From the IMG/VR virus record IMGVR_UViG_3300020442_001396, positions 1 to 63,594 of that record: DNA of 63,594 nucleotides; one strand, written 5' to 3'. The translations under genes and the position numbers were made by a program. Positions 965-20,800 of the stretch are shown here, one piece after another; position 1 is the first letter of the stretch; every line of letters begins with the position of its first letter. This DNA comes from a virus. The notes below the pieces were generated by a model. That model saw only the letters and a program-made list of their open reading frames with translations. It made no database searches and was not told the DNA's origin.

Positions 965-1587
965 CTATCGAAATGTTTTGTCCTCAATGGTATTACGTTG
1001 AGACAGTTCCAGTTGAATATCAACAGCAGATCGAAAAATTATTTGAACCTCATATCAGAGACGAGAGTATCTACAAAGAATCCCCTTGGGATTGTAACTG
1101 CCTGACTACATTTCAATCAGAGGGTAATCTTACTCTACCTTGGAATGACTGGTTAGAATGTTGTAGGTCAACACTTGATAAGATGATAGATGAAATGCAA
1201 CCTAAGATCGACATCGAAGTTGTACCTCAGGAAGCGTGGGCAAATCTATATAATAAAGGTATGCATCAAGAATACCATACTCATGAACTACCATTTTGTA
1301 ATTTGAGCATGTGTTATTTTTATGATGTGCCTGACGGAGACCCCCTGTTTCGTTTCGTATATAATGGACATGACCACTATAAAAAGTCTGGTCTAAGTGA
1401 AGCATTTGATATGCCGATTCAAACTAGAATCATCCCTAAGGCATCTAAAGGCGATCTTATTATATTTCCCTCGCATTATCCTCATTTCGTTGCTCCTAAC
1501 GTCTCTGAGACCCCTCGTATCACATTCTCAGGTAACCTGTATGTTGTGCCAAACGACAAAGCGTCACAGGTAACCCCCAAACCATAA
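961..1587 (+). CDS. 2-oxoglutarate/Fe(II) oxygenase-like protein
   Basis: 208 residues resembling the 2OG-Fe(II) oxygenases often carried by cyanophages (TIGR02466-type). Visible landmarks are His106-Thr-His108-Glu109, candidates for the proximal iron ligands; a hydrophobic strand followed by DVPDGDPLFRF; then GDLIIFPSHYPHFVAPN with His175 as the distal iron ligand; and Pro-Arg186-Ile-Thr-Phe-Ser, where the Arg would bind the 2-oxoglutarate carboxylate. Family members hydroxylate proteins, nucleobases or small metabolites; the substrate here cannot be read from sequence. The start ATG overlaps the stop of the preceding gene by 4 nt. The length fits a minimal single-domain enzyme. Confidence 0.8.
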   Translation: MTIEMFCPQWYYVETVPVEYQQQIEKLFEPHIRDESIYKESPWDCNCLTTFQSEGNLTLPWNDWLECCRSTLDKMIDEMQPKIDIEVVPQEAWANLYNKGMHQEYHTHELPFCNLSMCYFYDVPDGDPLFRFVYNGHDHYKKSGLSEAFDMPIQTRIIPKASKGDLIIFPSHYPHFVAPNVSETPRITFSGNLYVVPNDKASQVTPKP

Positions 1588-2283: not shown

Positions 2284-2444
2284 ATGCTTACAAGATTATC
2301 TACCATAATAAGAACACACCTTGGGACAAAACAGAGATCATTACTATGGGAGAGGAATCAACGTATCATGTCATGGAACTATTCAATGAGGATGTTAATT
2401 ATGATGTACATTGTGTTAGATCGGAGACATTGCTGAATAAATAA
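2280..2444 (+). CDS. Small protein of unknown function
   Basis: 54 residues (MNAYKIIYHNKNTPWDKTEI), probably beta-rich. It is the last gene of the overlapping run that starts at 1919. Its end overlaps the sequence AATAAATA (2436-2443), which resembles a T4-type late promoter box. Confidence 0.6.
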   Translation: MNAYKIIYHNKNTPWDKTEIITMGEESTYHVMELFNEDVNYDVHCVRSETLLNK

Positions 2445-2536
2445 TATCAGTCAGCAGATGCTACACACACGAGGACAACAAGATGCACTAAACCCCATAA
2501 CTTCGTTATGGAAATTATGTTCTTAAGTGAGGTACA
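2445..2536 (+). other. Non-coding spacer with a short hairpin
   Basis: It holds a 7-bp inverted repeat, CCATAAC-TTC-GTTATGG (2495-2511), with no U-run after it, so it is not a standard terminator. The AATAAATA at 2436-2443 upstream could be a late promoter for the gene at 2537. The spacer carries no copy of the palindrome found before the later gene clusters. Confidence 0.35.
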
Positions 2537-2719
2537 ATGCATAACATTTTTACACACAAACAGACTCCAGAGTTCAATCACTTCCACGCTGATACATACG
2601 AAAATGAGTTATGGAACGACTATTTCGATTGTTTAGTTGATTCCGCAAACTTAAAACACAACCAATCAGCAAAACGTATCTGTCGTTACTTAGTCCCAGA
2701 TGAGGACTGGGCAGACTAG
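2537..2719 (+). CDS. Small protein of unknown function
   Basis: 60 residues (MHNIFTHKQTPEFNHFHADTY), His- and Asp-rich, ending in DEDWAD. It stands alone between a non-coding spacer and a terminator. Its stop codon lies inside the left arm of the repeated palindrome. Confidence 0.6.
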   Translation: MHNIFTHKQTPEFNHFHADTYENELWNDYFDCLVDSANLKHNQSAKRICRYLVPDEDWAD

Positions 2720-2776
2720 ACCAATCGAAGAACTGTCACATGACCCCTTGTATGGGGTCTTTTTTTATGGCATACT
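2716..2776 (+). promoter_or_regulatory. Palindrome plus promoter, copy 1
   Basis: Left half CTAGACCA (2716-2723), 10-nt spacer ending AAC, right half TGTCACAT (2734-2741). After 29 nt comes CATACT (2771-2776), with TTGTAT (2748-2753) 17 nt before it as a possible -35. The left arm is weak; the right arm fits the consensus. The gene at 2798 follows. Confidence 0.45.
2742..2766 (+). terminator. Rho-independent terminator
   Basis: Stem GACCCC/GGGGTC with a 6-nt loop followed by seven T. It ends the transcript of the gene at 2537 and sits between the palindrome and the -10 box of the next promoter. Confidence 0.85.
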
Positions 2777-2797
2777 ATTAATAGTTAAGAAAAACGC

Positions 2798-3223
2798 ATG
2801 TCAACCAACGCACGAATCGGACTTAAACTAGCAGATGGTTCAATCCTCTCAGCATATCATCATTGGGATGGTTATCCTGAGTGGTTGGGTGTTACTCTCA
2901 ATGAGCAGTATAATACAAAAGAGAAAATTGCTGAACTTATTGATGGTGGTAACATGAGTTCATGTTGGTCAGATAATGTGTATGATTATGATAAGCAAGA
3001 GTTCGTAAAGAGAGATCCCCAACCAGAATATTACGGTGGAGATAGTGAAGCACCAAAACTAAGTAAAGATTTCGTAGAGTTTACAGAGATCTCTAACTCA
3101 GGCGAAGAGTTCTTGTATGTCTTTGATAATGGTTGGAAAGCATACTCTATTGATGAGAAGTATGATGAAAACTATAGTGTAATTGATCGCAGCATCAATC
3201 CAGTCTCAATCCCAGAGGCATAG
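2798..3223 (+). CDS. Conserved phage protein of unknown function
   Basis: 141 residues starting MSTNARIGLKLADGSILSAY with the HHWDGYPEWLG motif. This N-terminus recurs in proteins of many phages, as recalled from family knowledge, with no established role. The body is acidic and ends with a region rich in Tyr and Asp. It lies between two terminators and is therefore a single-gene transcription unit driven by the promoter at 2716-2776. Confidence 0.8.
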   Translation: MSTNARIGLKLADGSILSAYHHWDGYPEWLGVTLNEQYNTKEKIAELIDGGNMSSCWSDNVYDYDKQEFVKRDPQPEYYGGDSEAPKLSKDFVEFTEISNSGEEFLYVFDNGWKAYSIDEKYDENYSVIDRSINPVSIPEA

Positions 3224-3279
3224 GACAGTTCCCAAACTGTACCAAACCCCTTGACACGAGGGGTTTTTTCCTGTATATT
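3220..3279 (+). promoter_or_regulatory. Palindrome plus promoter, copy 2
   Basis: ATAGGACAGTT (from 3220) and AACTGT (3236-3241) form the palindrome, ending TGTACCAA at 3245. After 28 nt comes TATATT (3274-3279). TTGACA (3251-3256) lies exactly 17 nt before it and falls in the loop region of the terminator hairpin at 3244-3269. It drives the helicase gene. Confidence 0.65.
3244..3269 (+). terminator. Rho-independent terminator overlapping a -35 box
   Basis: Stem AAACCCCT/AGGGGTTT with a 7-nt loop and a T-run (TTTTTT overlapping the stem end). The hairpin contains the TTGACA of the next promoter. Confidence 0.85.
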
Positions 3280-3300
3280 ATTAGTATTGAAACATTCGTT

Positions 3301-4527
3301 ATGAAACTTCGACCACATCAGCAGCGAGCATTTGATAGAATGCAGCAGTATGATATTGGTAAGGTCATCGTCCCTACAGGCGGTGGCAAAACTTACATCA
3401 TGATCGCTGATCTAGTCGAACAGCATCGCACTCGATACGATTCAATGACAGTTGTTGTTGCACCTCGTATCCTATTGGCAAACCAACTTTGTGCAGAGTT
3501 CACAGAGTTTATTACAGGTGCAGAGATTATGCACGTCCACTCAGGTGAGACACATTATCTCTCTAGCACTAAAGTTGATGAGATTCAGCAGTTCGCATGT
3601 CGTGATAAGCATAAGATCATCTTCACTACATATCATTCTTTGCATCGTGTAGTAGATGCAGGTATCAAAGTTGATACTGTTTACTATGATGAAGCACATA
3701 ATGGTACTGGTAAGCACTTCTTTATTGGTGTTGAGGGTATGGTAAGGCGAGCAACTCGTAGGTTCGCATTTACAGCAACCCCTAAGGTTGGACGTGGTGC
3801 CACTAAGAATCGTGGTATGAACAACTCACAAGTATGGGGACAGACTCTTGAGAATGTACCCGCAAAAGAGTTGATCGCAGCAGGTGCTATTCTTCCCCCT
3901 AAGGTTGTTCCCTTTAAGACTGATCGAGTCAGGGACAAGTCTAACAACTATCAAGTCGATGCAGACAACTTGATGGACATTCTTGATTCTTTGGACAGTC
4001 AGCAGTCAGCAAAAGTTTTGGTGGCAGCACCCAGTTCAAAGATTCTTGGCAACATGCTTGGTCATACTCTCATCCTTGATTATCTCAAGGAAAATGGTTA
4101 TGACGTACTACACATTACATCTAAATTTGGTGCAGTCATCAATGGCAAAAAAGTGGGACGTGAAGAGTTTTTCGATACTCTCACTAAGTGGGGCAACGAT
4201 AACGATCGCAGGTTCGTTGTTTTTCACTACAGCATCCTCTCTGAAGGTATTAATGTTAATGGTCTCACTCATACTGTTTTGTTGAGGAACTTGCCGATCA
4301 TCGAAATGGCACAGACTATTGGTCGAGTCATTCGAGTTCATAAAGATGACCGCAAATCAGTAGAGGAAGGACTTATTCCAGTTGGTGCATTCAACCTCTA
4401 CAAAAAACAGTTCGGACAAGTAACTGTTCCTACTGGTTACAAGTATGGCGATCGTATTGCACAGAGGTTGCAGAATGTCATCGACTATATCTTTGTAGAG
4501 GGAATTCCACCTCTTGCATACTGTTGA
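3301..4527 (+). CDS. Superfamily 2 DEAH-type helicase (UvsW/ResIII-like)
   Basis: 408 residues with the full set of superfamily 2 motifs. The N-terminal Q-like segment is RPHQQRAF. Walker A is PTGGGKT (25-31). Motif Ia is VAPRILLANQ, motif II is YDEAH (Asp130-His133), motif III is FTATP (157-161) and motif VI is QTIGRVIR (338-345), which carries the arginine finger. It should be an ATP-driven DNA or branched-DNA translocase. T4 UvsW does this in recombination and in resolving replication intermediates, but UvsW has an extra N-terminal domain of about 100 residues that is absent here, where the helicase core begins at residue 1. It could be a shortened UvsW or a separate ResIII-like helicase. 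It is a single-gene unit after a terminator. Confidence 0.88.
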   Translation: MKLRPHQQRAFDRMQQYDIGKVIVPTGGGKTYIMIADLVEQHRTRYDSMTVVVAPRILLANQLCAEFTEFITGAEIMHVHSGETHYLSSTKVDEIQQFACRDKHKIIFTTYHSLHRVVDAGIKVDTVYYDEAHNGTGKHFFIGVEGMVRRATRRFAFTATPKVGRGATKNRGMNNSQVWGQTLENVPAKELIAAGAILPPKVVPFKTDRVRDKSNNYQVDADNLMDILDSLDSQQSAKVLVAAPSSKILGNMLGHTLILDYLKENGYDVLHITSKFGAVINGKKVGREEFFDTLTKWGNDNDRRFVVFHYSILSEGINVNGLTHTVLLRNLPIIEMAQTIGRVIRVHKDDRKSVEEGLIPVGAFNLYKKQFGQVTVPTGYKYGDRIAQRLQNVIDYIFVEGIPPLAYC

Positions 4528-4586
4528 TGTGACAGTTGTATAAGTGTCTACTACTGGTTGCAATCTGGTAGTAGATCATTTATATT
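4527..4586 (+). promoter_or_regulatory. Palindrome plus sigma70-like promoter, copy 3
   Basis: ATGTGACA (4527-4534), spacer GTTGTATAAG, TGTCTACT (4545-4552). After 28 nt comes TATATT (4581-4586). TTGCAA (4558-4563) is exactly 17 nt before it and lies in the loop of a hairpin (CTACTAC 4548-4554, GTAGTAG 4568-4574). The expected start is about 4593. Confidence 0.65.
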
Positions 4587-4592
4587 AATAAT

Positions 4593-4714
4593 GTCGAAAC
4601 AAACAAGGCATGGGTGATCTCACGCTGACTCTCGCTTACATTATCAAGTGCTAAGGGATACCTTGAGTCAGATGGAAAAGGTCTTTAAGTCGAACCTCTT
4701 AGTTTTGTTTCGAC
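4593..4714 (+). ncRNA. Candidate structured RNA (small RNA or leader)
   Basis: This segment has no convincing reading frame and is closed by an 11-bp perfect stem, GTCGAAACAAA (4593-4603) with TTTGTTTCGAC (4704-4714). Inside, CTGACTC (4625-4631) pairs with GAGTCAG (4665-4671), enclosing AAGG-GATA-CCTT (4653-4664), a GNRA-type loop. A further hairpin pairs AGGT (4679-4682) with ACCT (4694-4697), and a small one pairs GTG with CAC (4614-4623). The upstream TTGCAA-17-TATATT promoter would start transcription at about 4593, the first base of the closing stem. The 3' side is followed by a U-rich stretch (4722-4735). It matches no RNA family I can name. The alternative is a regulatory leader of the gene at 4736. 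Confidence 0.5.
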
Positions 4715-4735
4715 CCACCTATATTTTTCTTTATT

Positions 4736-4891
4736 ATGATTGACGTTGAACTCACTTTTGATGAAGCATATCAGTTTATTAAACTGTATGATATTCTCAG
4801 GGATATGGATATGCCCCTAACAGAAAAGCAAATGACTGTATTTGAAAAAGTACAATATGCTCAAAGCGGTTCACGTTATCAGGGAGCATAA
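4736..4891 (+). CDS. Tiny protein, helix-rich, paralogue of the next gene
   Basis: 51 residues beginning MIDVELTFDEAYQFIKLYDIL. The pattern of a short strand ending in LT, then an amphipathic helix with LYD, is shared with the next gene and with those at 6169, 7017, 8044 and 9386. There is no Shine-Dalgarno sequence, and the start lies 22 nt after the closing stem of the candidate RNA. Function unknown. Confidence 0.6.
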   Translation: MIDVELTFDEAYQFIKLYDILRDMDMPLTEKQMTVFEKVQYAQSGSRYQGA

Positions 4892-4893
4892 TA

Positions 4894-5109
4894 ATGGTCA
4901 AAATTGAATTAACGTTAGATCAATTTATGGAACTGTATGATGCAGTCAAAGATCTACCTGACATCTATAAATCTGAAGCAGCAGCAGGAGAGTATGAATT
5001 GGACATAGGTCATCGAGATCTATTTGAAGCAGTTGAAGTACTGGAAAAAATTGCATCAAAAACTAATGTTGAAGTTATTGAATTTAAAGAGGTAGATGTT
5101 GATGAATAA
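4894..5109 (+). CDS. Small helix-rich protein of the same family
   Basis: 71 residues, MVKIELTLDQFMELYDAVKDL then an acidic tail. It lines up with the preceding gene (MIDVELTFDEAYQFIKLYDIL), so the two look like a tandem duplication. It starts 2 nt after the preceding stop. Confidence 0.65.
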   Translation: MVKIELTLDQFMELYDAVKDLPDIYKSEAAAGEYELDIGHRDLFEAVEVLEKIASKTNVEVIEFKEVDVDE

Positions 5110-5248
5110 ATACTACAACTTGGTAGATCTACCTGATGAACTTTATAACCCAATAGTAAAACAACTATGGGCAGCATTTGAAAAGCAGTATGGAGAACTA
5201 CCAGATAATGCAGAACTTTCAGTAAGGGTTTACTACGATGAAAATTGA
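5102..5248 (+). CDS. Tiny protein of unknown function
   Basis: 48 residues (MNKYYNLVDLPDELYNPIVK). It overlaps the preceding gene by 8 nt and the following one by 11 nt. The frame is closed on both sides by other genes, and the coupling pattern supports it. Confidence 0.55.
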   Translation: MNKYYNLVDLPDELYNPIVKQLWAAFEKQYGELPDNAELSVRVYYDEN

Positions 5249-5456
5249 AGATGTTACCGATAGTCCAAAAGACTGGTATGATTTTTGGTACAACTCTACA
5301 GACTATTTGAAAGAGTTGGAAGAAGATGGATTTTACTTTGATGATAATCTAGGGTTATCATATCAAATTGAAGGGTGGACTGGTCAGGATAATGATTCTG
5401 TTTCAGAGTATCAGAAAAAGATTTATGACGAAGCAGCAGATGTGACAGTTGAATAA
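5238..5456 (+). CDS. Small acidic, aromatic-rich protein
   Basis: 72 residues (MKIEDVTDSPKDWYDFWYNS), acidic with many Trp and Tyr. Its last codons (VTVE) are encoded by the left arm of the palindrome of the next promoter, so the control element has invaded the 3' end of the gene. Function unknown. Confidence 0.65.
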   Translation: MKIEDVTDSPKDWYDFWYNSTDYLKELEEDGFYFDDNLGLSYQIEGWTGQDNDSVSEYQKKIYDEAADVTVE

Positions 5457-5502
5457 GTGACCACTAAACCCCCCATTGGGGGTTTTTTTATGGCATTATA
5501 AT
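5440..5502 (+). promoter_or_regulatory. Palindrome plus promoter, copy 4
   Basis: ATGTGACA (5440-5447), spacer GTTGAATAAG, TGACCACT (5458-5465). CATTAT (5494-5499) follows at 28 nt, or TATAAT (5497-5502) at 31 nt. The position expected for a -35 reads CCCCAT, inside the terminator. The gene at 5525 follows. Confidence 0.6.
5466..5489 (+). terminator. Rho-independent terminator
   Basis: Stem AAACCCCC/GGGGGTTT around a 4-nt loop with a run of seven T. It ends the cluster 4736-5456 and sits between the palindrome and the -10 box. Confidence 0.88.
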
Positions 5503-5524
5503 AGAGTAAACACACAGAGGTCTT

Positions 5525-5725
5525 ATGGATTTGCAACTCGAACGTGAGTATGCTATTGACAACATGGCAGATTCACTCTTTGATCAAATGAAATCCCTTA
5601 TCAAAGTTGATCAGCAACTTGATGCTCTCGCAATTTGTGAAGAGTGGTTGGTAGATGGTAAAGACCCGCAAGATGGCGATTATAAGTTTATCTTCCTTAA
5701 AAACTTCACATTGGAGGACAACTAA
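5525..5725 (+). CDS. Small helical acidic protein
   Basis: 66 residues (MDLQLEREYAIDNMADSLFDQ), predicted all-helical with two amphipathic helices. It is the first gene of a four-gene cluster ending at 6399. Function unknown. Confidence 0.65.
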   Translation: MDLQLEREYAIDNMADSLFDQMKSLIKVDQQLDALAICEEWLVDGKDPQDGDYKFIFLKNFTLEDN

Positions 5726-5726
5726 A

Positions 5727-5930
5727 ATGAGAATGATTCATTCACTTTATTTTGGTAGAGCATTCTGGTTAGACGAGGACAATGAACTCATGTCTTGCCC
5801 TTGGTTAAAGGATGGTACTCTACTTGATGATCAAGCAGACTATGTTTCAGAGTGGACTGAACTAGAGGGAATCAGTTTAAGTGCATTACTTCCTATTCAC
5901 AGAGATCTATTAACAGAGGTAAAATCATGA
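5727..5930 (+). CDS. Small protein of unknown function
   Basis: 67 residues from the ATG at 5727, which is preceded by a GGAGGA-type ribosome binding site (5712-5717). An in-frame GTG and ATG further upstream lie inside the preceding gene and lack such a site. MRMIHSLYFGRAFWLDEDNE suggests a small beta-alpha fold. Confidence 0.65.
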   Translation: MRMIHSLYFGRAFWLDEDNELMSCPWLKDGTLLDDQADYVSEWTELEGISLSALLPIHRDLLTEVKS

Positions 5931-6172
5931 CTAGAGCAGATCAAGAATTTCAAGACTGGATAGATCAATGCCCTGACATGCTCAAGTTTAGACTTGAGTA
6001 CATTGACGTCAGAGCAGATATTGAAAACGTCATCCAAACCTATGAATATGAATTCAGCGATGATGAAACAAAAGAAGAAGTGATCGAGTCAGTACTTGAT
6101 GAGTTTTACAATCAAGACTGGGCAGACCACAACAATTTTATTTCCTACCTTATTGACGAGCAAATCAAATGA
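5927..6172 (+). CDS. Small acidic helical protein
   Basis: 81 residues (MTRADQEFQDWIDQCPDMLK), strongly acidic and all-helical by pattern. It overlaps both neighbours by 4 nt (ATGA). Function unknown. Confidence 0.65.
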   Translation: MTRADQEFQDWIDQCPDMLKFRLEYIDVRADIENVIQTYEYEFSDDETKEEVIESVLDEFYNQDWADHNNFISYLIDEQIK

Positions 6173-6399
6173 AAACTATCAATGTTCCCCTAACCTATGA
6201 TCAACTAAGTGATATGATCTATTATCTTGAGTGGAAGATCTCAGAGATAAATGAAGCAGGATGTGATCTGGAATACCCAGACATTGAGAACACACTAGAA
6301 CAATTAGTTGAGACTCAAGATAGACTCAGAGTGAGAACTAATGAAGAGTATGAACTCATGATGAAGAATAGAGCAGAAAAACCAGAAGAAATGTGGTAG
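6169..6399 (+). CDS. Small helix-rich protein, LT-helix family
   Basis: 76 residues, MKTINVPLTYDQLSDMIYYLEWKI and then a second helix. It shares the strand-LT-helix start with the genes at 4736, 4894, 7017, 8044 and 9386. Last gene of its cluster; the stop codon abuts the next palindrome. Confidence 0.65.
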   Translation: MKTINVPLTYDQLSDMIYYLEWKISEINEAGCDLEYPDIENTLEQLVETQDRLRVRTNEEYELMMKNRAEKPEEMW

Positions 6400-6461
6400 T
6401 GTGCCAGTTGTATTAGTGGCACACAGTTTCCCCATTCAGAGTTATTTTACTCTATTATAAT
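6399..6461 (+). promoter_or_regulatory. Palindrome plus promoter, copy 5
   Basis: GTGTGCCA (6399-6406), spacer GTTGTATTAG, TGGCACAC (6417-6424): a perfect 8-bp arm match. TATTAT (6453-6458) follows at 28 nt or TATAAT (6456-6461) at 31 nt. CCCCAT sits in the -35 position. There is no U-run, so it is not a terminator by itself. The gene at 6482 follows. Confidence 0.7.
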
Positions 6462-6481
6462 AGTAGTTAAGCAAAGCACTT

Positions 6482-6745
6482 ATGAACTCATCATTCAACG
6501 ATTTTATTGAATACGTCAAGTCATTCTATGGTTATGGCGGTATCTATGATCAGGGTAGAACTAGAGAGCAAATTGCTTATTGCACATGCCTCTATCTTGA
6601 TGCTATTGCTCATTATGATAGCGATGTTTATTCATGGGGTGATGGTGATAGTTTAGACAGAGAGCGTGTAAGAGACATCATGAACAACATTTATGATGGT
6701 GGTTACAATCCATTCGCACACTTAGCAGAAGAGGTGACAGCATGA
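6482..6745 (+). CDS. Small protein of unknown function
   Basis: 87 residues (MNSSFNDFIEYVKSFYGYGG), aromatic- and Asp-rich, mostly helical. First gene of a three-gene cluster. It overlaps the zinc-protein gene by 4 nt. Confidence 0.65.
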   Translation: MNSSFNDFIEYVKSFYGYGGIYDQGRTREQIAYCTCLYLDAIAHYDSDVYSWGDGDSLDRERVRDIMNNIYDGGYNPFAHLAEEVTA

Positions 6746-7020
6746 GTTGTTGCACAGAGTGTGGAAGATCTGTAGATTTTGGGTCAGGATGGTACGTTAA
6801 CAGAGTACCGTCCGATGGTGGTTACATGTGTGCAGAATGTGCATCCTTAGAATGTGATCGATGTGACCAGAAAATACCACTTGATGAAGATATTACACCT
6901 AACGATGTTTACGGATGGGATGATGATGCCCCTGTTATGTTTTATGACTTCGCACACAGAATTTGTGAATGTTGCTTAACAACAGAAGAGAGAAAACTTT
7001 ACACCTTACAATGCTCATGA
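6742..7020 (+). CDS. Cys-rich probable zinc-binding protein
   Basis: 92 residues with four Cys pairs: Cys4-x2-Cys7, Cys30-x2-Cys33, Cys38-x2-Cys41 and Cys75-x-Cys77-Cys78, with His72 nearby. The spacing suggests two zinc knuckles, one from the first two pairs and one from the last two. Such small phage zinc proteins often bind nucleic acid or host RNA polymerase, but nothing in the sequence decides this. The region between the knuckles is acidic (DEDITPNDVYGWDDDAP). Confidence 0.75.
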   Translation: MSCCTECGRSVDFGSGWYVNRVPSDGGYMCAECASLECDRCDQKIPLDEDITPNDVYGWDDDAPVMFYDFAHRICECCLTTEERKLYTLQCS

Positions 7021-7304
7021 CATACGACAATCAAAAAGAAATCACAATCAAATTATCCAAACGTGAGTTAGGATTATTGAACCATATAACCAGAGGATTA
7101 TATCGTAGAATTGACAGCGATGTAACAGAGTGGGGTTCAAGTTGTACTGGTCACGATGTGATCGAACATGACTATTTTGGTAAAGATGCAATCGTGGGTG
7201 CTTATAAAGAAATTAAGAATGCAGTAGACTCATTCTATACTGATGAGAATGAATTAGAACTTCCTAAGGATAGCAGAGGGAACCGCAACCCAAGTTGGGT
7301 TTAG
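7017..7304 (+). CDS. Small helix-rich protein, LT-helix-like
   Basis: 95 residues from the ATG at 7017, which overlaps the preceding stop (ATGA). Earlier in-frame starts lie within the zinc-protein gene. MTYDNQKEITIKLSKRELGLLNHI shows the strand-then-helix start seen in several neighbours. Function unknown. Confidence 0.65.
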   Translation: MTYDNQKEITIKLSKRELGLLNHITRGLYRRIDSDVTEWGSSCTGHDVIEHDYFGKDAIVGAYKEIKNAVDSFYTDENELELPKDSRGNRNPSWV

Positions 7305-7361
7305 ACCACTTGACAAAGTGGCACAAGACCCCTTGATTTTTGCCCAAAAACGTGTCATACT
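7301..7361 (+). promoter_or_regulatory. Palindrome plus promoter, copy 6
   Basis: TTAGACCA (7301-7308), spacer CTTGACAAAG, TGGCACAA (7319-7326). CATACT (7356-7361) follows at 29 nt, with TTGATT (7333-7338) exactly 17 nt before it. The left arm resembles copy 1 (2716). The gene at 7389 follows. Confidence 0.55.
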
Positions 7362-7388
7362 ATTAGTATAAAATTCATTCAGTTTAAA

Positions 7389-7550
7389 ATGCGATATTCA
7401 GTTCACGTCCCATCCGCCCCATTTGAAAATACAAGTTTTGTTGACTTGGATGACTGTTGGGGTCTTTGCTATGATCTTGCCCAAGAATATGGATATGCCG
7501 AAGTGCGTTATGGTGCATGTTTGATGGGTTCCTATACAGACAAAGATTAA
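7389..7550 (+). CDS. Tiny protein, paralogue of the gene at 7601
   Basis: 53 residues (MRYSVHVPSAPFENTSFVDL), containing AQEYGYAEVRYG. The gene at 7601 has ASDYGYSCVRNN at the matching place, so the two are likely diverged duplicates, each with its own promoter. Beta-alpha-beta pattern; no function recognised. Confidence 0.6.
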   Translation: MRYSVHVPSAPFENTSFVDLDDCWGLCYDLAQEYGYAEVRYGACLMGSYTDKD

Positions 7551-7594
7551 ACTGGCACACAGTTCCCCCATATTTCAAATCAATCCTTTATAAT
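7535..7594 (+). promoter_or_regulatory. Palindrome plus promoter, copy 7
   Basis: The right half TGGCACAC (7553-7560) is perfect; the left half TACAGACA (7535-7542) keeps only GACA. TATAAT (7589-7594) follows at 28 nt, with CCCCAT in the -35 position. The gene at 7601 starts 6 nt after the -10 box, at or very near the transcription start, which implies a leaderless or nearly leaderless transcript. Confidence 0.5.
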
Positions 7595-7600
7595 AGAATC

Positions 7601-7804
7601 ATGAATCAATTCCTCTACACAATCGAAACACCCGCCAAAACAATCGGTGGTGATGTTTATACAAATGACCTTGAGACCGCTGAAAACGGATGCATCGAAT
7701 GGGCATCCGATTATGGTTACTCATGTGTTCGCAATAATGTCACAGGCGAAATTGTCTTTGACTATGGTGACATTTTTGAAATGGTCGAGCAAGGCATTGT
7801 GTGA
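7601..7804 (+). CDS. Small protein, paralogue of the gene at 7389
   Basis: 67 residues from the ATG at 7601. The frame is open upstream, but that part runs through the preceding gene and the promoter, so this start is preferred. MNQFLYTIETPAKTIGGDVY is followed by a helix and a beta hairpin. Its stop codon is within the left arm of the next palindrome. Confidence 0.6.
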   Translation: MNQFLYTIETPAKTIGGDVYTNDLETAENGCIEWASDYGYSCVRNNVTGEIVFDYGDIFEMVEQGIV

Positions 7805-7858
7805 CAGTTGAATATGTGTCACACACTTCCTCGCATTGGGTATCAAATGCCCTATAAT
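7799..7858 (+). promoter_or_regulatory. Palindrome plus promoter, copy 8 (best arms)
   Basis: GTGTGACA (7799-7806), spacer GTTGAATATG, TGTCACAC (7817-7824): perfect 8-bp arms. TATAAT (7853-7858) follows at 28 nt. No -35 match is seen at the right distance. It drives the cluster 7883-8664. Confidence 0.72.
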
Positions 7859-7882
7859 AAGAATAACAAACAAAGGAGACAA

Positions 7883-8047
7883 ATGTCACACGCAGTCAAC
7901 ACCGAAATCCTTGAAAATCTTTATGAAGAAATTCTTGATGATCTCTCAGCAAAAAACATTCAATGGGGCATCATGGCACCAATGTCAAGACTCGAAGAGA
8001 TCGCAGCAAAGGAAGCAGAAAAAAGATTCGAGGAGTTAGCACAATGA
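7883..8047 (+). CDS. Tiny helical protein
   Basis: 54 residues from the ATG at 7883, which has a strong AAAGGAG ribosome binding site (7872-7878). The upstream open frame crosses the promoter and is rejected. Two helices are likely, with a charged C-terminus. First of five overlapping genes. Confidence 0.65.
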   Translation: MSHAVNTEILENLYEEILDDLSAKNIQWGIMAPMSRLEEIAAKEAEKRFEELAQ

Positions 8048-8205
8048 AGGGTTTAAACATCGATCTCACAAATGGACAGTACTCAATGTTATATGACATT
8101 GTAGTAAAGGCAAATCCAGTTGATGCAGATCCCAACTTTGACGTCCAAACATATGACAATCTATTGGACGCTATTTGTAAAGCAACAGTTACTTATCTCA
8201 AATGA
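8044..8205 (+). CDS. Tiny protein, LT-helix family
   Basis: 53 residues, MKGLNIDLTNGQYSMLYDIV: the same strand-LT-helix-LYD pattern as the genes at 4736 and 4894. It overlaps both neighbours by 4 nt. Confidence 0.62.
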   Translation: MKGLNIDLTNGQYSMLYDIVVKANPVDADPNFDVQTYDNLLDAICKATVTYLK

Positions 8206-8357
8206 TCTCAGAAATTCCAAACGTCCCATTTTATGATTTTCCCCAGAGTCCGATTTTAATTCTCGGATTCTTTGGAATTCTAGTCGCTATGTTCACAGTT
8301 TACACAGTCAACAAAGCATACTTTAACAGTCCTTACAATCCTGATAACCAAAAATGA
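8202..8357 (+). CDS. Tiny single-span membrane protein
   Basis: 51 residues with one clear transmembrane segment (about residues 16-36, ILILGFFGILVAMFTVY). A short acidic N-terminus precedes it, and a Lys/Asn/Tyr-rich C-terminus follows. By the positive-inside tendency the C-terminus would be cytoplasmic. Small phage membrane proteins can act in lysis control, superinfection exclusion or host takeover; none is assignable. It overlaps both neighbours by 4 nt. Confidence 0.68.
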   Translation: MISEIPNVPFYDFPQSPILILGFFGILVAMFTVYTVNKAYFNSPYNPDNQK

Positions 8358-8524
8358 AAAATCTTTGCATCCCATCATTCAACGATACTGAAGCAAAATG
8401 GCGAGAGTATCACGAAGAATACGAAGAGAAGTTTACAACAGAAACTTATCAGGCACATATTGCCATTGCTCAAAAATACCCATTCATTTATAATGAGTAT
8501 GGTTTACCTAGGGAGTTCGATTAA
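8354..8524 (+). CDS. Tiny acidic/aromatic protein
   Basis: 56 residues (MKNLCIPSFNDTEAKWREYH), helix-rich with a run of Glu and Tyr. It is coupled to both neighbours by overlapping start and stop codons. Function unknown. Confidence 0.6.
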   Translation: MKNLCIPSFNDTEAKWREYHEEYEEKFTTETYQAHIAIAQKYPFIYNEYGLPREFD

Positions 8525-8664
8525 TGAAGTTTAGTAAAGCAGAAATCGATTATCTTTTAGATGCAGTACGTTATCACTATTACATGAACGATGACATCAA
8601 AAAAGATATAATTGATATTAACGCAGAAATCCAAAGAAAATTACATGAGTGTGCCAATGAATAA
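8524..8664 (+). CDS. Tiny helical protein
   Basis: 46 residues (MKFSKAEIDYLLDAVRYHYY), two amphipathic helices, related in style to the gene at 9386. Its last codons are part of the next palindrome. Confidence 0.58.
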   Translation: MKFSKAEIDYLLDAVRYHYYMNDDIKKDIIDINAEIQRKLHECANE

Positions 8665-8709
8665 ACTGGCACAACATGGATTGATTTTAATCTCATTACT
8701 CTTTATAAT
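8649..8709 (+). promoter_or_regulatory. Palindrome plus sigma70-like promoter, copy 9
   Basis: GTGTGCCA (8649-8656), spacer ATGAATAAAC, TGGCACAA (8667-8674). TATAAT (8704-8709) follows at 29 nt, with TTGATT (8681-8686) exactly 17 nt before it. It drives the genes at 8737 and 8983. Confidence 0.68.
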
Positions 8710-8736
8710 AAGTACATAACAAACATTCAAACAAAA

Positions 8737-8979
8737 ATGAATCTATCAGCAACTTACACAGAACCAACAAACAGAATCAAGCAGAGAATCTTGAAAGATG
8801 GCAACTTGTCAAATATGGCATGTTGTTGTTCAAACTGGTCAGAGTTCGTTGTTGAAATCAACGAATGGGGTATTGATACTCTAGGCGGTGTGGAATTTGA
8901 TTCACTTGATGAGTATCAGATTCAGACTCTTGATTTATTCATTCAAGCAGAAAACGGTTACTTAAGAGAGGAGGGTTAA
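8737..8979 (+). CDS. Small protein of unknown function
   Basis: 80 residues (MNLSATYTEPTNRIKQRILK) with CysCysCys at 29-31 and an acidic helical second half. It is followed after 3 nt by the next gene. Confidence 0.65.
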   Translation: MNLSATYTEPTNRIKQRILKDGNLSNMACCCSNWSEFVVEINEWGIDTLGGVEFDSLDEYQIQTLDLFIQAENGYLREEG

Positions 8980-8982
8980 GTC

Positions 8983-9159
8983 ATGAATGATACAGGACAC
9001 GATTATTCTTATGTAACAACTAAAGAGCAATTTATCGAAGCAGCATTTGAAATTGCCTTTGGAGAGAATGCAATAAATCGAGATTTCGATTTTAATAGTG
9101 TATTATGCGAACTTCATAAGTTTAGCGATGAGGCACTAGAGTTAAGCGAAGGTATGTGA
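8983..9159 (+). CDS. Tiny acidic helical protein
   Basis: 58 residues (MNDTGHDYSYVTTKEQFIEA), acidic. Its stop codon is inside the left arm of the next palindrome. Function unknown. Confidence 0.58.
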   Translation: MNDTGHDYSYVTTKEQFIEAAFEIAFGENAINRDFDFNSVLCELHKFSDEALELSEGM

Positions 9160-9213
9160 CAATTATATTACCGTCCACTTCATGTAGTCATGGGGTGGAT
9201 TTTTCTTTATAAT
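9154..9213 (+). promoter_or_regulatory. Palindrome plus promoter, copy 10
   Basis: ATGTGACA (9154-9161), spacer ATTATATTAC, degenerate right half CGTCCACT (9172-9179). TATAAT (9208-9213) follows at 28 nt. The right half resembles those of copies 3 and 4. It drives the cluster 9236-10167. Confidence 0.5.
9174..9204 (+). terminator. Rho-independent terminator
   Basis: TCCAC/GTGGA and CATG/CATG stems separated by a small internal loop, followed by TTTTT. It lies between the palindrome and the -10 box, as in copies 1, 2 and 4. Confidence 0.75.
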
Positions 9214-9235
9214 AAACTTAATTAAACAAACTAAC

Positions 9236-9385
9236 ATGACCATCGAAGAATACAAACAACTCATGAAAAGAGACATTCTTAAAATTGGGTTAGACGTGGA
9301 TGAAGCAACTGAAGTAGTCGAGGACGATGACTATAAGGTTACAATCGACTACGACAAAATGACAACAACATTCGAGGTTAAGTAA
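9236..9385 (+). CDS. Tiny acidic protein
   Basis: 49 residues (MTIEEYKQLMKRDILKIGLD). A helix, then a beta hairpin with an acidic turn (EDDDYKVTIDYD). The next gene starts immediately after its TAA. Confidence 0.58.
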   Translation: MTIEEYKQLMKRDILKIGLDVDEATEVVEDDDYKVTIDYDKMTTTFEVK

Positions 9386-9592
9386 ATGAAAATGACCAGA
9401 AAAGAGTACGAATTGCTTTATAACGCATTCAAAAACTATCGTGTGTATATGAGTGACGATGACATGGTTATGAGTGAAAATATTTTAGATAGGTTATTTT
9501 ATTTTAATTTTGATCAGTTACCCGCATTTAATGAGGAGGACACGGAAGAGGATCCGCAACCCCATTTAACCCTTATAACTAATGATGAATAG
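9386..9592 (+). CDS. Small protein, LT-helix-like
   Basis: 68 residues, MKMTRKEYELLYNAFKNYRV, with an acidic C-terminal tail. The start resembles the helix part of the genes at 8524 and 8044. Confidence 0.62.
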   Translation: MKMTRKEYELLYNAFKNYRVYMSDDDMVMSENILDRLFYFNFDQLPAFNEEDTEEDPQPHLTLITNDE

Positions 9593-9600
9593 AAAGCAAA

Positions 9601-9813
9601 ATGAGTTGGAATCTAATCCCTTGGTCAGAGCAAACAACTAACATAATGGCAACTATGACCTATGCCGATTTAATCGAAAAGTTACAACAATTAGATGAAA
9701 AGCAACTTAAAAAAAATGTTGCTATCTATGATGAACACCTTAATGAAAAGTGTTTGGTACATAACGAATTAATCTTTTTTGATAACAATCAATTTCCCTA
9801 TTTAAAGATCTAA
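9601..9813 (+). CDS. Small protein of unknown function
   Basis: 70 residues if it starts at 9601. The core MTYADLIEKLQQLDEKQLKKNVAIYD, starting at 9655, resembles a small cyanophage protein family, so the true start could be the ATG at 9646 or 9655. Helix then beta strands; function unknown. The stop overlaps the next ATG. Confidence 0.6.
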   Translation: MSWNLIPWSEQTTNIMATMTYADLIEKLQQLDEKQLKKNVAIYDEHLNEKCLVHNELIFFDNNQFPYLKI

Positions 9814-10064
9814 TGAAATTCAAGAAAGGCGATTATTACTCACTTTTTAGCATGGTAGAGCATGAAGGGTTTATTAACTTTCAATGCTCAGATTATGTAA
9901 CCTTAGTGTTAAGAGAGTGGGAGAAACCCGAAGCATTACAACATGGTGCTAGGAATAAATTCCAACAAGTGCAATTAGTTGTTTTTCCTTGGCAGTATAA
10001 AGATTTAAAGTTTTTAGGACGCAATCATTATGAGAAAGAAGAGCAATCCGCAGACATTAAATAA
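9813..10064 (+). CDS. Small beta-rich protein of unknown function
   Basis: 83 residues. MKFKKGDYYSL followed by alternating strands suggests a small barrel of the SH3/KOW style, which is inference from pattern only. It overlaps the next gene by 35 nt. Confidence 0.6.
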   Translation: MKFKKGDYYSLFSMVEHEGFINFQCSDYVTLVLREWEKPEALQHGARNKFQQVQLVVFPWQYKDLKFLGRNHYEKEEQSADIK

Positions 10065-10167
10065 CATTCATTATAGTGCATTTTGGGAACTATGTAAAGA
10101 GTTAACCGCAGAGACTTGGGAGGTCTTAAGAGAGATCAAAAAGAGACAGTTTAGACAGTTCCGCTAA
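10030..10167 (+). CDS. Tiny basic helical protein
   Basis: 45 residues (MRKKSNPQTLNNIHYSAFWE), ending in a basic helix (REIKKRQFRQFR). The 35-nt overlap with its neighbour is longer than usual here, so confidence is moderate. Confidence 0.5.
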   Translation: MRKKSNPQTLNNIHYSAFWELCKELTAETWEVLREIKKRQFRQFR

Positions 10168-10299
10168 TAAATTGTAAAAACTGTTAAATATTAAAATAAA
10201 TGTAGTTATGTGTTTAATCTTTGAATATGTTGGGGAGTTATTGGAGTCTTAGCACGCAATCACAGAACCGTCAAGTATTCTCAGAGAACCAACACAAAT

Positions 10300-10328
10300 T
10301 TGACAGAAAACCATTTTTCGAGTATAAT
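10300..10328 (+). promoter_or_regulatory. Perfect sigma70 consensus promoter
   Basis: TTGACA (10300-10305), 17 nt, TATAAT (10323-10328). The palindrome of the other promoters is absent. It looks like a strong host-polymerase promoter, so probably early. Confidence 0.8.
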
Positions 10329-10364
10329 AACTCTGTAAGGGTTCAGAAAACAACTCTAAGAAAC

Positions 10365-10565
10365 ATGCTTCCAAACCTAGTTGCACCTAACCAGTATAAG
10401 GAGTTGCTGAAACTCTACGAGTCTGGACAGTTACCCATAGAAGAGGGTATTTCATTGTTTCAGTTTTTAATCGATACCGAACAATGTTGGGATGATTTGG
10501 AGTTATCTAGAGTTGCTAATTATCTCATCTCAGAAGGTTTTTGTTATTATGTGTACACGCCTTAA
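10365..10565 (+). CDS. Small helical protein of unknown function
   Basis: 66 residues (MLPNLVAPNQYKELLKLYES), helical. The frame is open back to a TTG at 10221, but that would place the strong promoter at 10300-10328 inside the gene. The ATG at 10365 lies about 30 nt after the expected transcription start and is preferred. Confidence 0.6.
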   Translation: MLPNLVAPNQYKELLKLYESGQLPIEEGISLFQFLIDTEQCWDDLELSRVANYLISEGFCYYVYTP

Positions 10566-10574
10566 TGTAACCCT

Positions 10575-10814
10575 ATGATTTACAAAGTTTACTCAGAGCA
10601 ATGCGAACTAGTTGGAGAGTTTAGTTCAATTTATGACATGGAACATTTTATGGACGATGTTAGAAACCAGAGGGGAGAACGCTATAAGAATACCCCACGG
10701 TTATCGGTCTTTGATTATATAAAATCAATCGGTTACTATATGGAAATTGTAGAGGGTGTGACAGTTGACAAAGTGGCACAAGGGGACTACACAGGGGTTG
10801 CTAAGGGGTTATAA
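10575..10814 (+). CDS. Small protein of unknown function
   Basis: 79 residues (MIYKVYSEQCELVGEFSSIY), beta strands then helix. Its last 20 codons (from EGVTVDKVAQ on) are encoded by the palindrome-promoter element of the next gene, and its TAA lies inside the TATAAT box. Confidence 0.6.
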   Translation: MIYKVYSEQCELVGEFSSIYDMEHFMDDVRNQRGERYKNTPRLSVFDYIKSIGYYMEIVEGVTVDKVAQGDYTGVAKGL

Positions 10815-10815
10815 T
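10756..10815 (+). promoter_or_regulatory. Palindrome plus promoter, copy 11
   Basis: GTGTGACA (10756-10763), spacer GTTGACAAAG, TGGCACAA (10774-10781). TATAAT (10810-10815) follows at 28 nt. The whole element lies inside the 3' end of the preceding gene. It drives the gene at 10844. Confidence 0.68.
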
Positions 10816-10843
10816 AAGTACATAACAAACAAAGGTAAAACAC

Positions 10844-11161
10844 ATGAGAAAAATTGAAGCACAAATGAACAAAGCAATCCGCAACGGTTCAAACTTCAGT
10901 TCATCTAATACTTCAGTCTCTCACGATAGCGAAGGCGCAAACGTTTACCTACATGGCAATCACATCGCAACAGTAAAGGATAACAGCATTCTTTTATTCG
11001 ATGGCGGTTGGCAGTCAAACACCACTAAATCACGCCTTAATGCTTTACTCGATGAATTTTCATACGGTGCTAGAGTATTTCAAAAGCAATTTGAGTGGTT
11101 CGTAGGTTACAAGAATTTAACAGAGGATTTTGTTAACGGTTTTGAACTTGCTATCGACTAG
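10844..11161 (+). CDS. Conserved phage protein of unknown function
   Basis: 105 residues. MRKIEAQMNKAIRNGSNFSS, the VYLHGNHIA strand, then GGWQSNTTKSRLNALL are recognisable from many phages and a few plasmids, without a known role. It is the last gene of the early/middle region and is followed at once by a consensus promoter and a terminator. Confidence 0.78.
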   Translation: MRKIEAQMNKAIRNGSNFSSSNTSVSHDSEGANVYLHGNHIATVKDNSILLFDGGWQSNTTKSRLNALLDEFSYGARVFQKQFEWFVGYKNLTEDFVNGFELAID

Positions 11162-11190
11162 TTGACAGACTACTCAAAAGGGTGTATAAT
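11162..11190 (+). promoter_or_regulatory. Perfect sigma70 consensus promoter
   Basis: TTGACA (11162-11167), 17 nt, TATAAT (11185-11190). The expected start (about 11197) falls at the end of the first arm of the following terminator hairpin. Transcripts from this promoter would therefore lack that arm and escape termination. Confidence 0.75.
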
Positions 11191-11217
11191 AGAGGGGTAA
11201 TCAATCCCCTCTTTTTT
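11191..11217 (+). terminator. Rho-independent terminator
   Basis: Stem AGAGGGG/CCCCTCT with an 8-nt loop and a T-run. It ends transcription of the gene at 10844 and overlaps the start of the promoter at 11162-11190. Confidence 0.85.
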
Positions 11218-11220
11218 ATT

Positions 11221-11414
11221 ATGTAATAATAGCAGTTTCTTATATATTATAATAAACAGTCGAGATCGCAGTCATAGCGCGGGTTCTCGCCCTAAAATCG
11301 CGCCCTAAACTAAAAAAGGTCTACTACCCTAACCTACAAAGGTTCCCCAGGGCACTCGATATATTATTCCAAAATCTAAATACATCCAGATTCAAAAATT
11401 TTTCGGAGAAAAAA
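11221..11414 (+). other. Non-coding boundary between early and late regions
   Basis: No gene is seen. It holds a TATAAT (11248-11253), a GC-rich hairpin whose outer stem is GCGCG (11277-11281) with CGCGC (11299-11303), and a 13-nt-spaced direct repeat of CGCCCTAAA (11288-11296 and 11301-11309). A small AACCT/AGGTT hairpin lies near 11331-11345, and a late promoter box is at 11375. The GC-rich stretch stands out against the AT-rich surroundings. Confidence 0.5.
11375..11382 (+). promoter_or_regulatory. T4-like late promoter box
   Basis: TCTAAATA, 33 nt before the first late gene (11415). It resembles TATAAATA of T4 late promoters, which are read with the phage sigma factor gp55. Confidence 0.5.
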
Positions 11415-11637: not shown

Positions 11638-11802
11638 ATGTCACACAGATTCTACACAACACTCGAAGAAGACGACTTTGGTGACCTCATCCTTACGATT
11701 CCCTACGAAGTGTGTGAAGAACTTGGATGGACGGTCAACACAGAACTAGACTATACTATAGAGGATAACTCTTTTACCTTGAAGAAACGTGATGAACAAT
11801 GA
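11638..11802 (+). CDS. SpoVT/AbrB-like small protein
   Basis: 54 residues. The segment GDLILTIPYEVCEELGW followed by TELDYTIEDNSFTLKK (about 15-50) has the swapped-hairpin pattern of AbrB/MazE-type DNA-binding domains: strand, IP, short helix ending in LGW, strand, strand. Such domains bind DNA as dimers in regulators and antitoxins. Its place at the head of the late region would suit a regulator, which is inference. It overlaps the next gene by 11 nt. Confidence 0.6.
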   Translation: MSHRFYTTLEEDDFGDLILTIPYEVCEELGWTVNTELDYTIEDNSFTLKKRDEQ

Positions 11803-17808: not shown

Positions 17809-20800
17809 ATGAACAACATTAATAAGGTTTCCCAGTCGATTGAGTCCCAATCACCCGACTTTATCGGGCAGGAATACCCCCTGTTCAATAAGTTTCTTGA
17901 GTACTACTATAAGTCACAAGAGAAGACTGGTTTAGGACAAAATATTCTTAATAACTTTCTTGGATATCTTGATATCGATAAACTCGATATTGGAATCTTG
18001 GATGGTTCGACTACGCTTGTAGAACCTATTACAAACAGTTCAGATAAGATTGTTGTTGAAAGTATTAACCCTTTCTTAGAATCTAATGGTTCTATTCTGA
18101 TTGGTGATGAAGTCATATATTATGAAGGTGTTGATAAGTCTCCAGAAATTGCACTTTCTCCTGGTATTTCCTACGAACAGGTAAAACTCAAGTGGACCAC
18201 TCTTGCTAGTCTAATCAATACTTTTGACGGTACTACTACTTTATTTCCCCTAAAATCACAAGACAGTCCGATTGCTCCCCCTTCAGCACAGCATCTGATT
18301 GTTTCTTTGTATGGTAAGATTTTAATTCCGAATATCGATTATACGATCAGCGGATCAAACATCAACTTCACTACTGCTCCTAGAACCAAGATTCCTGCTG
18401 ACGATGCAGGTTCAACTTATATCTACTATCTCAGCGGTTTTATTGAGAACACCATTTATGGATTAGATAATCTTTCTGGTGCTTTTGGAGATGGTAAAAA
18501 GCAATTTAGTCTAACTCGTAACGGTGCTAGGTATGAACCCGAAGTTGAAGAATATTTAAACGTAATTTACGATAATCGCCTTTTAGTTCCAAAAGTTGAT
18601 TACTTCTTAGACAAGGATCAATTTATTTTCAAAGAAGCACCTCTGAATGGTCGTTTCTTATCAGTTCATTCGATTGAGGCACCTATTCCTTCTTTTGGTG
18701 CAGGTGCAGTTGGTTTTGCTCGTATTAGTGACACTGGACTTTTAACAAGCGTCTCTTCTAGTGCTATTGGTACTGGATATCGTTTTGAGTATCCTCCTCA
18801 AGTCAGAATCAACTCTGATGAGGGTTCTGGTGGTGCTGCAACTGCCCTTGTCAATGGTTTGAAGACAATCACCCTACTTGAGGGTGGAAGAGGTTACAGC
18901 ACGACTAACCCTCCTGTTGTACAAGTACAATCACCCACTAAAACTGGTTCTAGTCAAGCAACTATTACAGCAACTGTTACTGGTGGTGCAGTTACTGAAT
19001 TGAATATCACTAATTCTGGTTCTGGATATACTTTTACTCCTAGAATTACTTTTGTTCAACCAGGTGGTGCAAAATTAGGTGCACCTGTAATTACTAATGG
19101 TCAAGTTACTTCTATTCCTGTTACTGACGGAGGTTTTGGGTATACTACTGCTCCTACGGTTTATATTGATGAACCAACTGGTGATAACGCAATCAAGGCA
19201 GCATTAAGAGCAAATATCACTGATGGTAAGGTCATCAGTATCACAGTTTTGAATGCAGGACAAGGATATCATGATGGTGCTCATCAAGGACATGGTGGCG
19301 GTGCTGCACCTAGGGTTGCTATTATTGATCCTGTAGGTGCACAGGTATTAGAAACTGTAGTTGATGGTGATGGGCGTGTTATCAGAATTGACTTACTTAA
19401 TGGTGGTAGCGGATTTGATGATGTTCCCTCTGTTTACATTGTAGATAATAGAACTAACGGTGGTACTGGCGCAACTGCTGTTGCTTCTATTTTCAATGGT
19501 CAGATCACTGATATTAATATTACAAACTTTGGTAGCGGATATTCTGCTGCTAATCCTCCTGAGATTGTAATTCAAGCACCTCCTCAAGCAAAAGCATCTG
19601 CAGAGATTGGTCTGAATGAGGTTACTGGTTTCGTAGTCACTGAATCAGGTAAAGGGTACAGTAAAGCAGCATTTACTGGATGTGCAAGAGCAGCATCTGG
19701 TATTGTCAAGTATACTGAAACTGGTAATGCAGTATTCAGTAATAACACTACTGCTGCAGCAGCACCTATTGGTTCTTCAGTTAAATGTTTGGATGCACTC
19801 TTTGTTAAGAGACTTTTAGACAAATATACTGAGCAGTTCTTACCAGACGTTCCAGAACTTGACTATTCAAAGATCGATGTTCGTACAGCGATCAAAACTA
19901 TTAAAGATTTTTACTCTTCAAAGGGTACTTCGTTTAGTATCGCATATCTGTTCAAGTTACTTTACGGTGAAACTGTTACAGTTACATATCCTAAAGACCA
20001 AATCATCAAACCCTCTGCAGCAACTTGGTCTATTGATACTATTCTTCGTGCAACTTTAGTAAGTGGTAATCCTGAGAACATTAGAGATGGTCTGTTAACT
20101 CAAGAAGCATCTATTGCTGATCCTAATGTAACTAATGCAAGTGCACTAGTTGAAAACTATATTTCAATTAAAACTTCTGATGTAGAGATTTTTGAACTTG
20201 TTCTCTCTGAAGAAACTATTGTTGGGACGTTTACCGTACCATATAAGACAAAACTTGCCGAACCTCTTAATACAACCGATTCAATCATTACGGTTGACTC
20301 TACTATTGGTTGGCCAGAAAGAAACGGTGAGTTTGTTATTGGTGCAGGTGCTACTACTGAAGTTGTTCAATATAAAGAGAAATCACTCAACCAGTTTATT
20401 GAATGTACTCGTTCAGTAAATGGTATTGTAGAGGATTGGGATTCTGCTACTCAAGTTGCTTCTAACTTCACTGTATTTGTTAATAAGGGAACACCACAAG
20501 AAGTGGTGCTGAATGTTGTTGGTATCGTTGATGCACAACAGACTGTGCTTACTGACACTGGATCTTACTACCTACCTGGTGATAAACTCACTGTGTCGAA
20601 ACTAGGTGGTACTAGCACCGATCCTCATTTAACTACATGGTTGTATAACGTAAAAAAACTTATTAATGTTTCTAGCGTAACGTTTGGAGGTGTTAACAAT
20701 AGGTTTGCAACTATTACTTGCTCAAACAATCACGGTTTGTTGGTTGGTGATCAGGTTACTGTTTATGGTGCAAACCCAATCATCTACAATGGCACATTCC

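Follow-up and report, generated by a model that had tools for sequence, protein, structure and literature searches.

A conserved palindromic element at a fixed distance upstream of -10 boxes in T4-like cyanophages, with the features of an activator operator

The palindrome and its gene cluster

The viral record IMGVR_UViG_3300020442_001396 (63,594 nucleotides (nt); hereafter the window, meaning the whole stretch analysed) is part of a T4-like cyanophage genome, its positions 2400-11400 being 94.4% identical over 94% of their length to Cyanophage P-RSM1, a T4-like phage with the host Prochlorococcus. The counterpart of this region in other cyanophages is a cluster of short genes annotated without a function that lies 5′ of gp25 and gp6. 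An initial annotation had described eleven copies of a 26-nt imperfect palindrome between 2.7 and 10.8 kb, each followed by a TATAAT-like box, and read them as an operator system. All eleven copies are present where it placed them, and we find a twelfth, at 1544, that it did not contain. The consensus of the element is TGTGACAGTT-N4-AASTGKCACA. The copies are listed here with the scores and ranks given by the blind matrix described below (ORF, open reading frame).

1544..1569, + strand: palindrome, additional to the initial annotation; TATGAT 1597-1602; 16.7 bits, rank 9; unchanged in P-RSM1
2716..2741, + strand: palindrome; CATACT/TACTAT 2771-2778; terminator-like hairpin in spacer; before ORF 2798; 16.3 bits, rank 10
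3220..3245, + strand: palindrome; TATATT 3274-3279; terminator-like hairpin in spacer; before helicase ORF 3301; 17.7 bits, rank 8
4527..4552, + strand: palindrome; TATATT 4581-4586; before conserved non-coding stretch; 22.7 bits, rank 5; same layout in P-RSM4
5440..5465, + strand: palindrome; CATTAT 5494-5499 or TATAAT 5497-5502; terminator-like hairpin in spacer; before ORF 5525; 20.3 bits, rank 7
6399..6424, + strand: palindrome; TATTAT 6453-6458 or TATAAT 6456-6461; before ORF 6482; 30.8 bits, rank 2
7301..7326, + strand: palindrome; CATACT/TACTAT 7356-7363; before ORF 7389; 21.6 bits, rank 6
7535..7560, + strand: weak palindrome, right half-site only; TATAAT 7589-7594; 8.6 bits, rank 19; lost in P-RSM1
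7799..7824, + strand: palindrome; TATAAT 7853-7858; 27.8 bits, rank 3
8649..8674, + strand: palindrome; TATAAT 8704-8709; before ORF 8737; 26.0 bits, rank 4
9154..9179, + strand: palindrome; TATAAT 9208-9213; 13.9 bits, rank 11
10756..10781, + strand: palindrome; TATAAT 10810-10815; before ORF 10844 (Kyano_Gp96, Pfam); 32.2 bits, rank 1

When each copy was scored on the + strand (about 63,600 positions) with a matrix built from the remaining copies, at most 15 positions scored better for every copy except that at 7535, for which 21-28 did. A blind matrix was built from 90 training sites in Syn9, P-SSM4, P-HM2, S-PM2, P-RSM4 and ACG-2014f, with the window and P-RSM1 excluded. It ranks ten of the eleven copies at 1-8, 10 and 11 among 63,569 window positions, and the copy at 1544 takes rank 9. 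Because the training sites were originally found through the window's own matrix and retained if a -10 box lay near, wholly independent support has to come from the spacing and from the additional genomes considered below. At 12 bits or more the blind matrix finds 13 window positions, against a mean of 0.91 in 100 shuffles, and all but two of these lie below 11 kb. The term phage-wide used in the initial annotation does not hold within the window: the last real copy is that at 10.8 kb, and in the structural genes that follow matches are at chance level only. The weak copy at 7535 amounts to little more than a right half-site, and a deletion in P-RSM1 destroys this palindrome.

The element is shorter and less symmetrical than first described. 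Its informative length is 24 bp, as the outer base of either arm is nearly uninformative, and its arms are not purely palindromic: the upstream half favours TGTGACAG, and the downstream half, read inward, favours C at the sixth position. In environmental contigs chosen by palindrome sequence alone, 66 occurrences of one asymmetric version have a -10 box on the expected side in 41 cases and on the other side in 3, with the same -10 spacing as elsewhere; the asymmetry thus predicts on which side the promoter lies.

Distribution across phages

The element recurs in marine and freshwater T4-like cyanophages. Matches to TGTGMCASTTNNNNAASTGKCACA with at most three mismatches number 4-34 per genome in nine T4-like cyanophages and 8-16 in each of five large environmental contigs, against none in T4 and 0-1 per genome for a reversed-pattern control. 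The same search finds 19 matches in the freshwater phage S-CRM01, 9 in P-SSM7, 3-4 in each of Syn1, S-ShM2 and P-HM1, a single match with three mismatches in each of S-SM2 and HTVC008M, and none in KVP40 or P-SSP7.

A matrix scan at a threshold of 14 bits gives a similar picture. Of the 12 T4-like cyanophages scanned, 11 (P-RSM1, Syn9, P-SSM4, P-HM2, S-PM2, P-RSM4, ACG-2014f, P-SSM2, S-SSM7, S-CRM01 and Syn1) have 8-37 sites each, including 19 in P-SSM2 and 20 in S-PM2; the twelfth, S-SM2, has two. At this threshold T4 has none and shuffled genomes have 0-3. The SAR11-infecting relative HTVC008M has two matrix sites, neither with a good -10 box, which is chance level. The highest density is found in ACG-2014f (KJ019059), where most of the 37 sites of at least 14 bits lie within 27-58 kb.

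Spacing to the -10 box

In each of the eleven copies first described, a TATAAT-like box follows 28-31 nt downstream. The palindrome matrix contains no -10 information, and the same spacing nevertheless recurs across phages: among 161 sites that have a box with at least 5/6 matches within 25-32 nt, the distance from the palindrome edge has its mode at 28 nt, followed by 29 and 27 nt, and 147 sites have the box at 27-29 nt. Exact TATAAT sequences in six other genomes occur 9, 15 and 8 times at 27, 28 and 29 nt, respectively, and mostly 0-3 times elsewhere; these 32 cases surround 109 sites, for which the expectation is about 0.19 per position over both sides. Copies are not equally common away from -10 boxes, as 90 of the 109 sites have a box with at least 5/6 matches at 26-32 nt. 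P-SSM2 and S-SSM7, which contributed to none of the matrices, show the spacing again, boxes that match in 5/6 positions or more standing at 28 nt in 15 and 14 cases, respectively; so do S-CRM01 (7 boxes) and, weakly, Syn1. Shuffles, reversed-pattern controls, the blind matrix and the genomes outside matrix training together rule out a chance origin, and the element is almost certainly real and part of promoters.

The aligned sites show an A at the predicted start, a weak -35 region and a tendency towards an extended -10 box, with TGn in 63 of 161. The palindrome centre, proposed earlier to lie near -53, would fall at about -53.5 if the -10 box starts at -12. The -35 region, for which the initial annotation saw a match in only about five copies, is weak but not absent: the best TTGACA matches exceed those in shuffled spacers. 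As in activator-controlled sigma70 promoters, the operator precedes the core promoter by a constant distance (147 of 161 sites at 27-29 nt). A sigma70-type -10 box at a fixed distance is also a trait of T4 MotA-dependent middle promoters; no MotA-type activator box replacing the -35 region is found at these sites, as the palindrome edge, 27-29 nt from the -10 box, is upstream of the -35 position.

Link to genes

The sites are tied to gene starts and gene direction. Where an ORF start lies within 150 nt, it is 20-29 nt after the -10 box in 88 of 140 sites, and promoter and downstream ORF point the same way in 152 cases against 25; both figures are approximate because the gene set comes from ORF calling. 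P-HM2 carries an inverted gene block in which the promoters are inverted along with the genes. Sites also stand before orthologous genes in distant phages, namely a large peptidase in 7 of 9, cobS in 7 of 9, where two of the sites are weak, and a helicase in 7, with the palindrome centre mostly about 70 nt before the start codon.

The copy at 4527 precedes a conserved non-coding stretch, and the site at 41449 of P-RSM4 shares its palindrome, spacer length and TATATT box. The stretch occupies 4588-4725 in the window and 41497-41622 in P-RSM4, and is also found in P-RSM6. In the window and P-RSM4 identical copies of GTCGAAACAAAC and GTTTTGTTTCGAC flank it; the two blocks are able to pair and could close a long-range helix. 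The predicted fold has an energy of -35.8 kcal/mol (z -1.94). This stretch has no Rfam match and is possibly a phage small RNA.

A DNA site rather than an RNA hairpin

The arms show no base-pair covariation, and at the two most variable pairs (5/20 and 8/17) Watson-Crick combinations are rarer than independence predicts, so that a stem would hold frequent A-G and G-G mismatches. The absence of compensatory changes makes an RNA hairpin unlikely and led us to reject it. The idea that the palindrome works in RNA form (a hairpin, or a signal for processing or termination), or that it is a recombination cassette resembling the promoter early stem loops (PeSLs) of T4-like phages (PMC4503421), draws some support from the 88 of 193 copies that fall inside the end of the preceding ORF and from terminators in the spacers, found by a strict hairpin-plus-T-run search in 25 of 193 and clear by eye at 2716, 3220 and 5440. 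In addition, PMC4503421 names both the PeSLs and a stem loop at 11369-11391 of S-PM2, which adjoins a palindrome site at 11346. Neither role would explain the fixed distance to the -10 box, however, and we regard them as very improbable. PeSLs set a terminator stem loop immediately ahead of a promoter, within regions where small genes are shuffled, an arrangement that some of our sites may share; they differ in that no conserved palindromic operator is part of their description in PMC4503421, and in that only a minority of our spacers contain a terminator by the strict test.

Candidate binding proteins

The following features adjoin the site array.

11162..11190, + strand: TTGACA-N17-TATAAT, a perfect sigma70 promoter lacking a palindrome; precedes ORFs 11415 and 11638
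11638..11802, + strand: 54-aa AbrB/MazE-like protein (phrog_661), candidate regulator only

The 54-aa protein has a weak Pfam MazE match, below the cut-off, and is assigned to phrog_661 (T4-LIKE GC 390). Its AlphaFold model is a strand-strand-helix-strand-strand fold (predicted local distance difference test score, pLDDT, 87), for which the best PDB matches in Foldseek are MazE and AbrB (E 0.07-0.24), suggesting a resemblance to the swapped-hairpin DNA-binding proteins of this type. The gene adjoins the small-gene cluster with its site array and is found in most site-bearing phages. Phrog_661 is the most suggestive candidate regulator, and one that fits only partly.

Other candidates were rejected. 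The N terminus of CobS looks helix-turn-helix-like by eye, but Pfam detects no domain of this kind there, its matches being to AAA and related families. In GC66 and further small conserved proteins we could find no DNA-binding domain. Families restricted to site-bearing phages include hli, psbA, MazG, ThyX-like, DUF3110, DUF6561 and small proteins of unknown function. For the phage-encoded DNA-binding protein called for by the initial annotation, these searches gave one partly fitting candidate and no evident transcription factor. The regulator may be a phage protein that evolves fast or a host factor, or it may differ from lineage to lineage.

A predicted activator site and its rivals

Given a conserved site with fixed spacing and a link to gene starts and gene direction, the best explanation, to which we assign a probability of roughly 0.6, is that a dimeric, probably phage-encoded activator acts at SigA-type promoters. 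The palindrome is predicted to be bound by a dimeric protein that recognises this DNA sequence and is most likely encoded by the phage. The protein would cover positions from about -66 to -42, with its midpoint near -53.5, immediately ahead of the -35 region, and would aid the host SigA-type RNA polymerase at promoters with a good, often extended -10 box and a weak -35 region. One such protein could switch on dispersed short operons of small unknown-function genes together with those of the peptidase and cobS; these may be middle genes, as the initial annotation suggested. That the element is an operator for a protein is very probable; activation as its effect is likely, and a phage origin of the regulator is also favoured, if somewhat less firmly. 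This much of the earlier interpretation stands: a multi-copy operator at an activator-like fixed distance before the -10 box, common to T4-like cyanophages.

Several findings weigh against this explanation. The -35 boxes are better than those of shuffled spacers, and the promoters may therefore work without help. S-SM2 is a T4-like cyanophage, yet it has no more than two sites. Presence/absence profiling of 129 families reveals no evident transcription factor, and phrog_661 is not detected in the site-bearing phages P-HM2, P-HM1, S-SSM7 and S-CRM01, an absence confirmed by an unfiltered hidden Markov model search in three of the four. We accordingly rejected phrog_661 as the sole regulator, despite its fold, its position and the consensus sigma70 promoter upstream.

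That the families tested include no phage transcription factor shared by every site-bearing phage would also fit a host cyanobacterial factor, an activator borrowed by the phage that could turn the genes on from the first minutes, as would the restriction of the element to cyanobacterium-infecting members and its chance level in HTVC008M. Against this, eight host-type genomes contain 0-1 matches with at most three mismatches, and in most of the 61 Cyanobiaceae genomes the core motif is rarer than, or at best as frequent as, the reversed control. Two-mismatch matches are confined to 10 of 201 genomes, with 16 sites where the control has 2, a slight excess in a few genomes. A host regulon is unsupported by these counts, which favour a phage protein, and we consider a host factor unlikely. 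Dimer operators often serve as repressor sites, and a weak but better-than-shuffled -35 region with a frequent extended -10 box suggests promoters that could fire unaided; the palindrome could then let a later phage protein shut off genes transcribed first. Repression does not require so tight a distance to the -10 box, however, and the palindrome is placed ahead of the core promoter without covering it, which leaves this reading distinctly unlikely. It is improbable, too, that different small phage proteins, phrog_661 with its AbrB/MazE fold among them, took over the same operator in different lineages. The place of phrog_661 beside the site cluster in most site-bearing phages, after a consensus sigma70 promoter, would suit such a history, but the consensus looks unchanged in phages without detectable phrog_661, which would be unexpected if the binder had changed.

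Relation to known promoter systems

MotA boxes are short and stand in place of the -35 region. Our sites resemble the MotA/AsiA-dependent middle promoters of T4 in having a phage-specific box at a fixed distance to a sigma70-type -10 box, a poor -35 region and many operons; they differ in that the box is a palindrome of 24 bp with its centre near -53.5. According to PMC2984593, Alt, ModA, MotA and AsiA are missing from cyanomyoviruses, whose early and middle control it calls unclear. It is about an even chance that the palindrome marks a promoter class specific to cyanobacterium-infecting T4-like phages, with a phage-encoded dimeric activator of an unrecognised family functionally replacing MotA/AsiA.

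A putative middle promoter (Weigele et al.) is described in PMC2984593 as present in Syn9 and P-SSM4 and absent from P-SSM2 and S-PM2. Like the palindrome it is an element before T4-like cyanophage genes, and it was proposed to mark a temporal class. The palindrome is abundant in P-SSM2 and S-PM2, so the two are probably different motifs, as far as the description in PMC2984593 goes. A comparative study sought sigma70, T4 late, Pho and NtcA promoters in these genomes (PMC3037559), and none of these is the palindrome element. NtcA and Pho boxes are comparable as operators of dimeric or tandem-binding regulators near phage promoters (PMC3037559), but their patterns, GTA-N8-TAC and CTTA-N7-CTTA, do not match the consensus given above. 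We found no description of the motif in the literature searched, a scope that did not take in the Syn9 transcriptome study (Doron 2016).

T4-like cyanophages are among the commonest viruses of the sea, and their gene control before the late phase is described as unclear (PMC2984593). Because the operator is shared and its geometry fixed, it allows start sites to be predicted in numerous genomes, brings a large number of orphan small genes together with the peptidase and cobS in a single regulon, and offers a bait for fishing out the regulator.

Further observations

A second perfect TTGACA-N17-TATAAT promoter without a palindrome lies at 10300 in the same cluster; together with that at 11162, it suggests a second promoter class. 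One Cyanobiaceae genome contains three near-consensus palindromes within 16 kb (G042:C1:114041-129868), the first of them, by eye, beside an integrase-like ORF, and this locus is perhaps a phage-derived island. Two others (G020 and G143) have near-identical palindromes in common, for example TGTGCCACTAATCAAACTGACACA. Beyond the cluster and after gp6, positions 17809-36966 of the window form a single ORF of about 19 kb encoding 6385 aa, at the place where the P-HM2 annotation has a long gp7.

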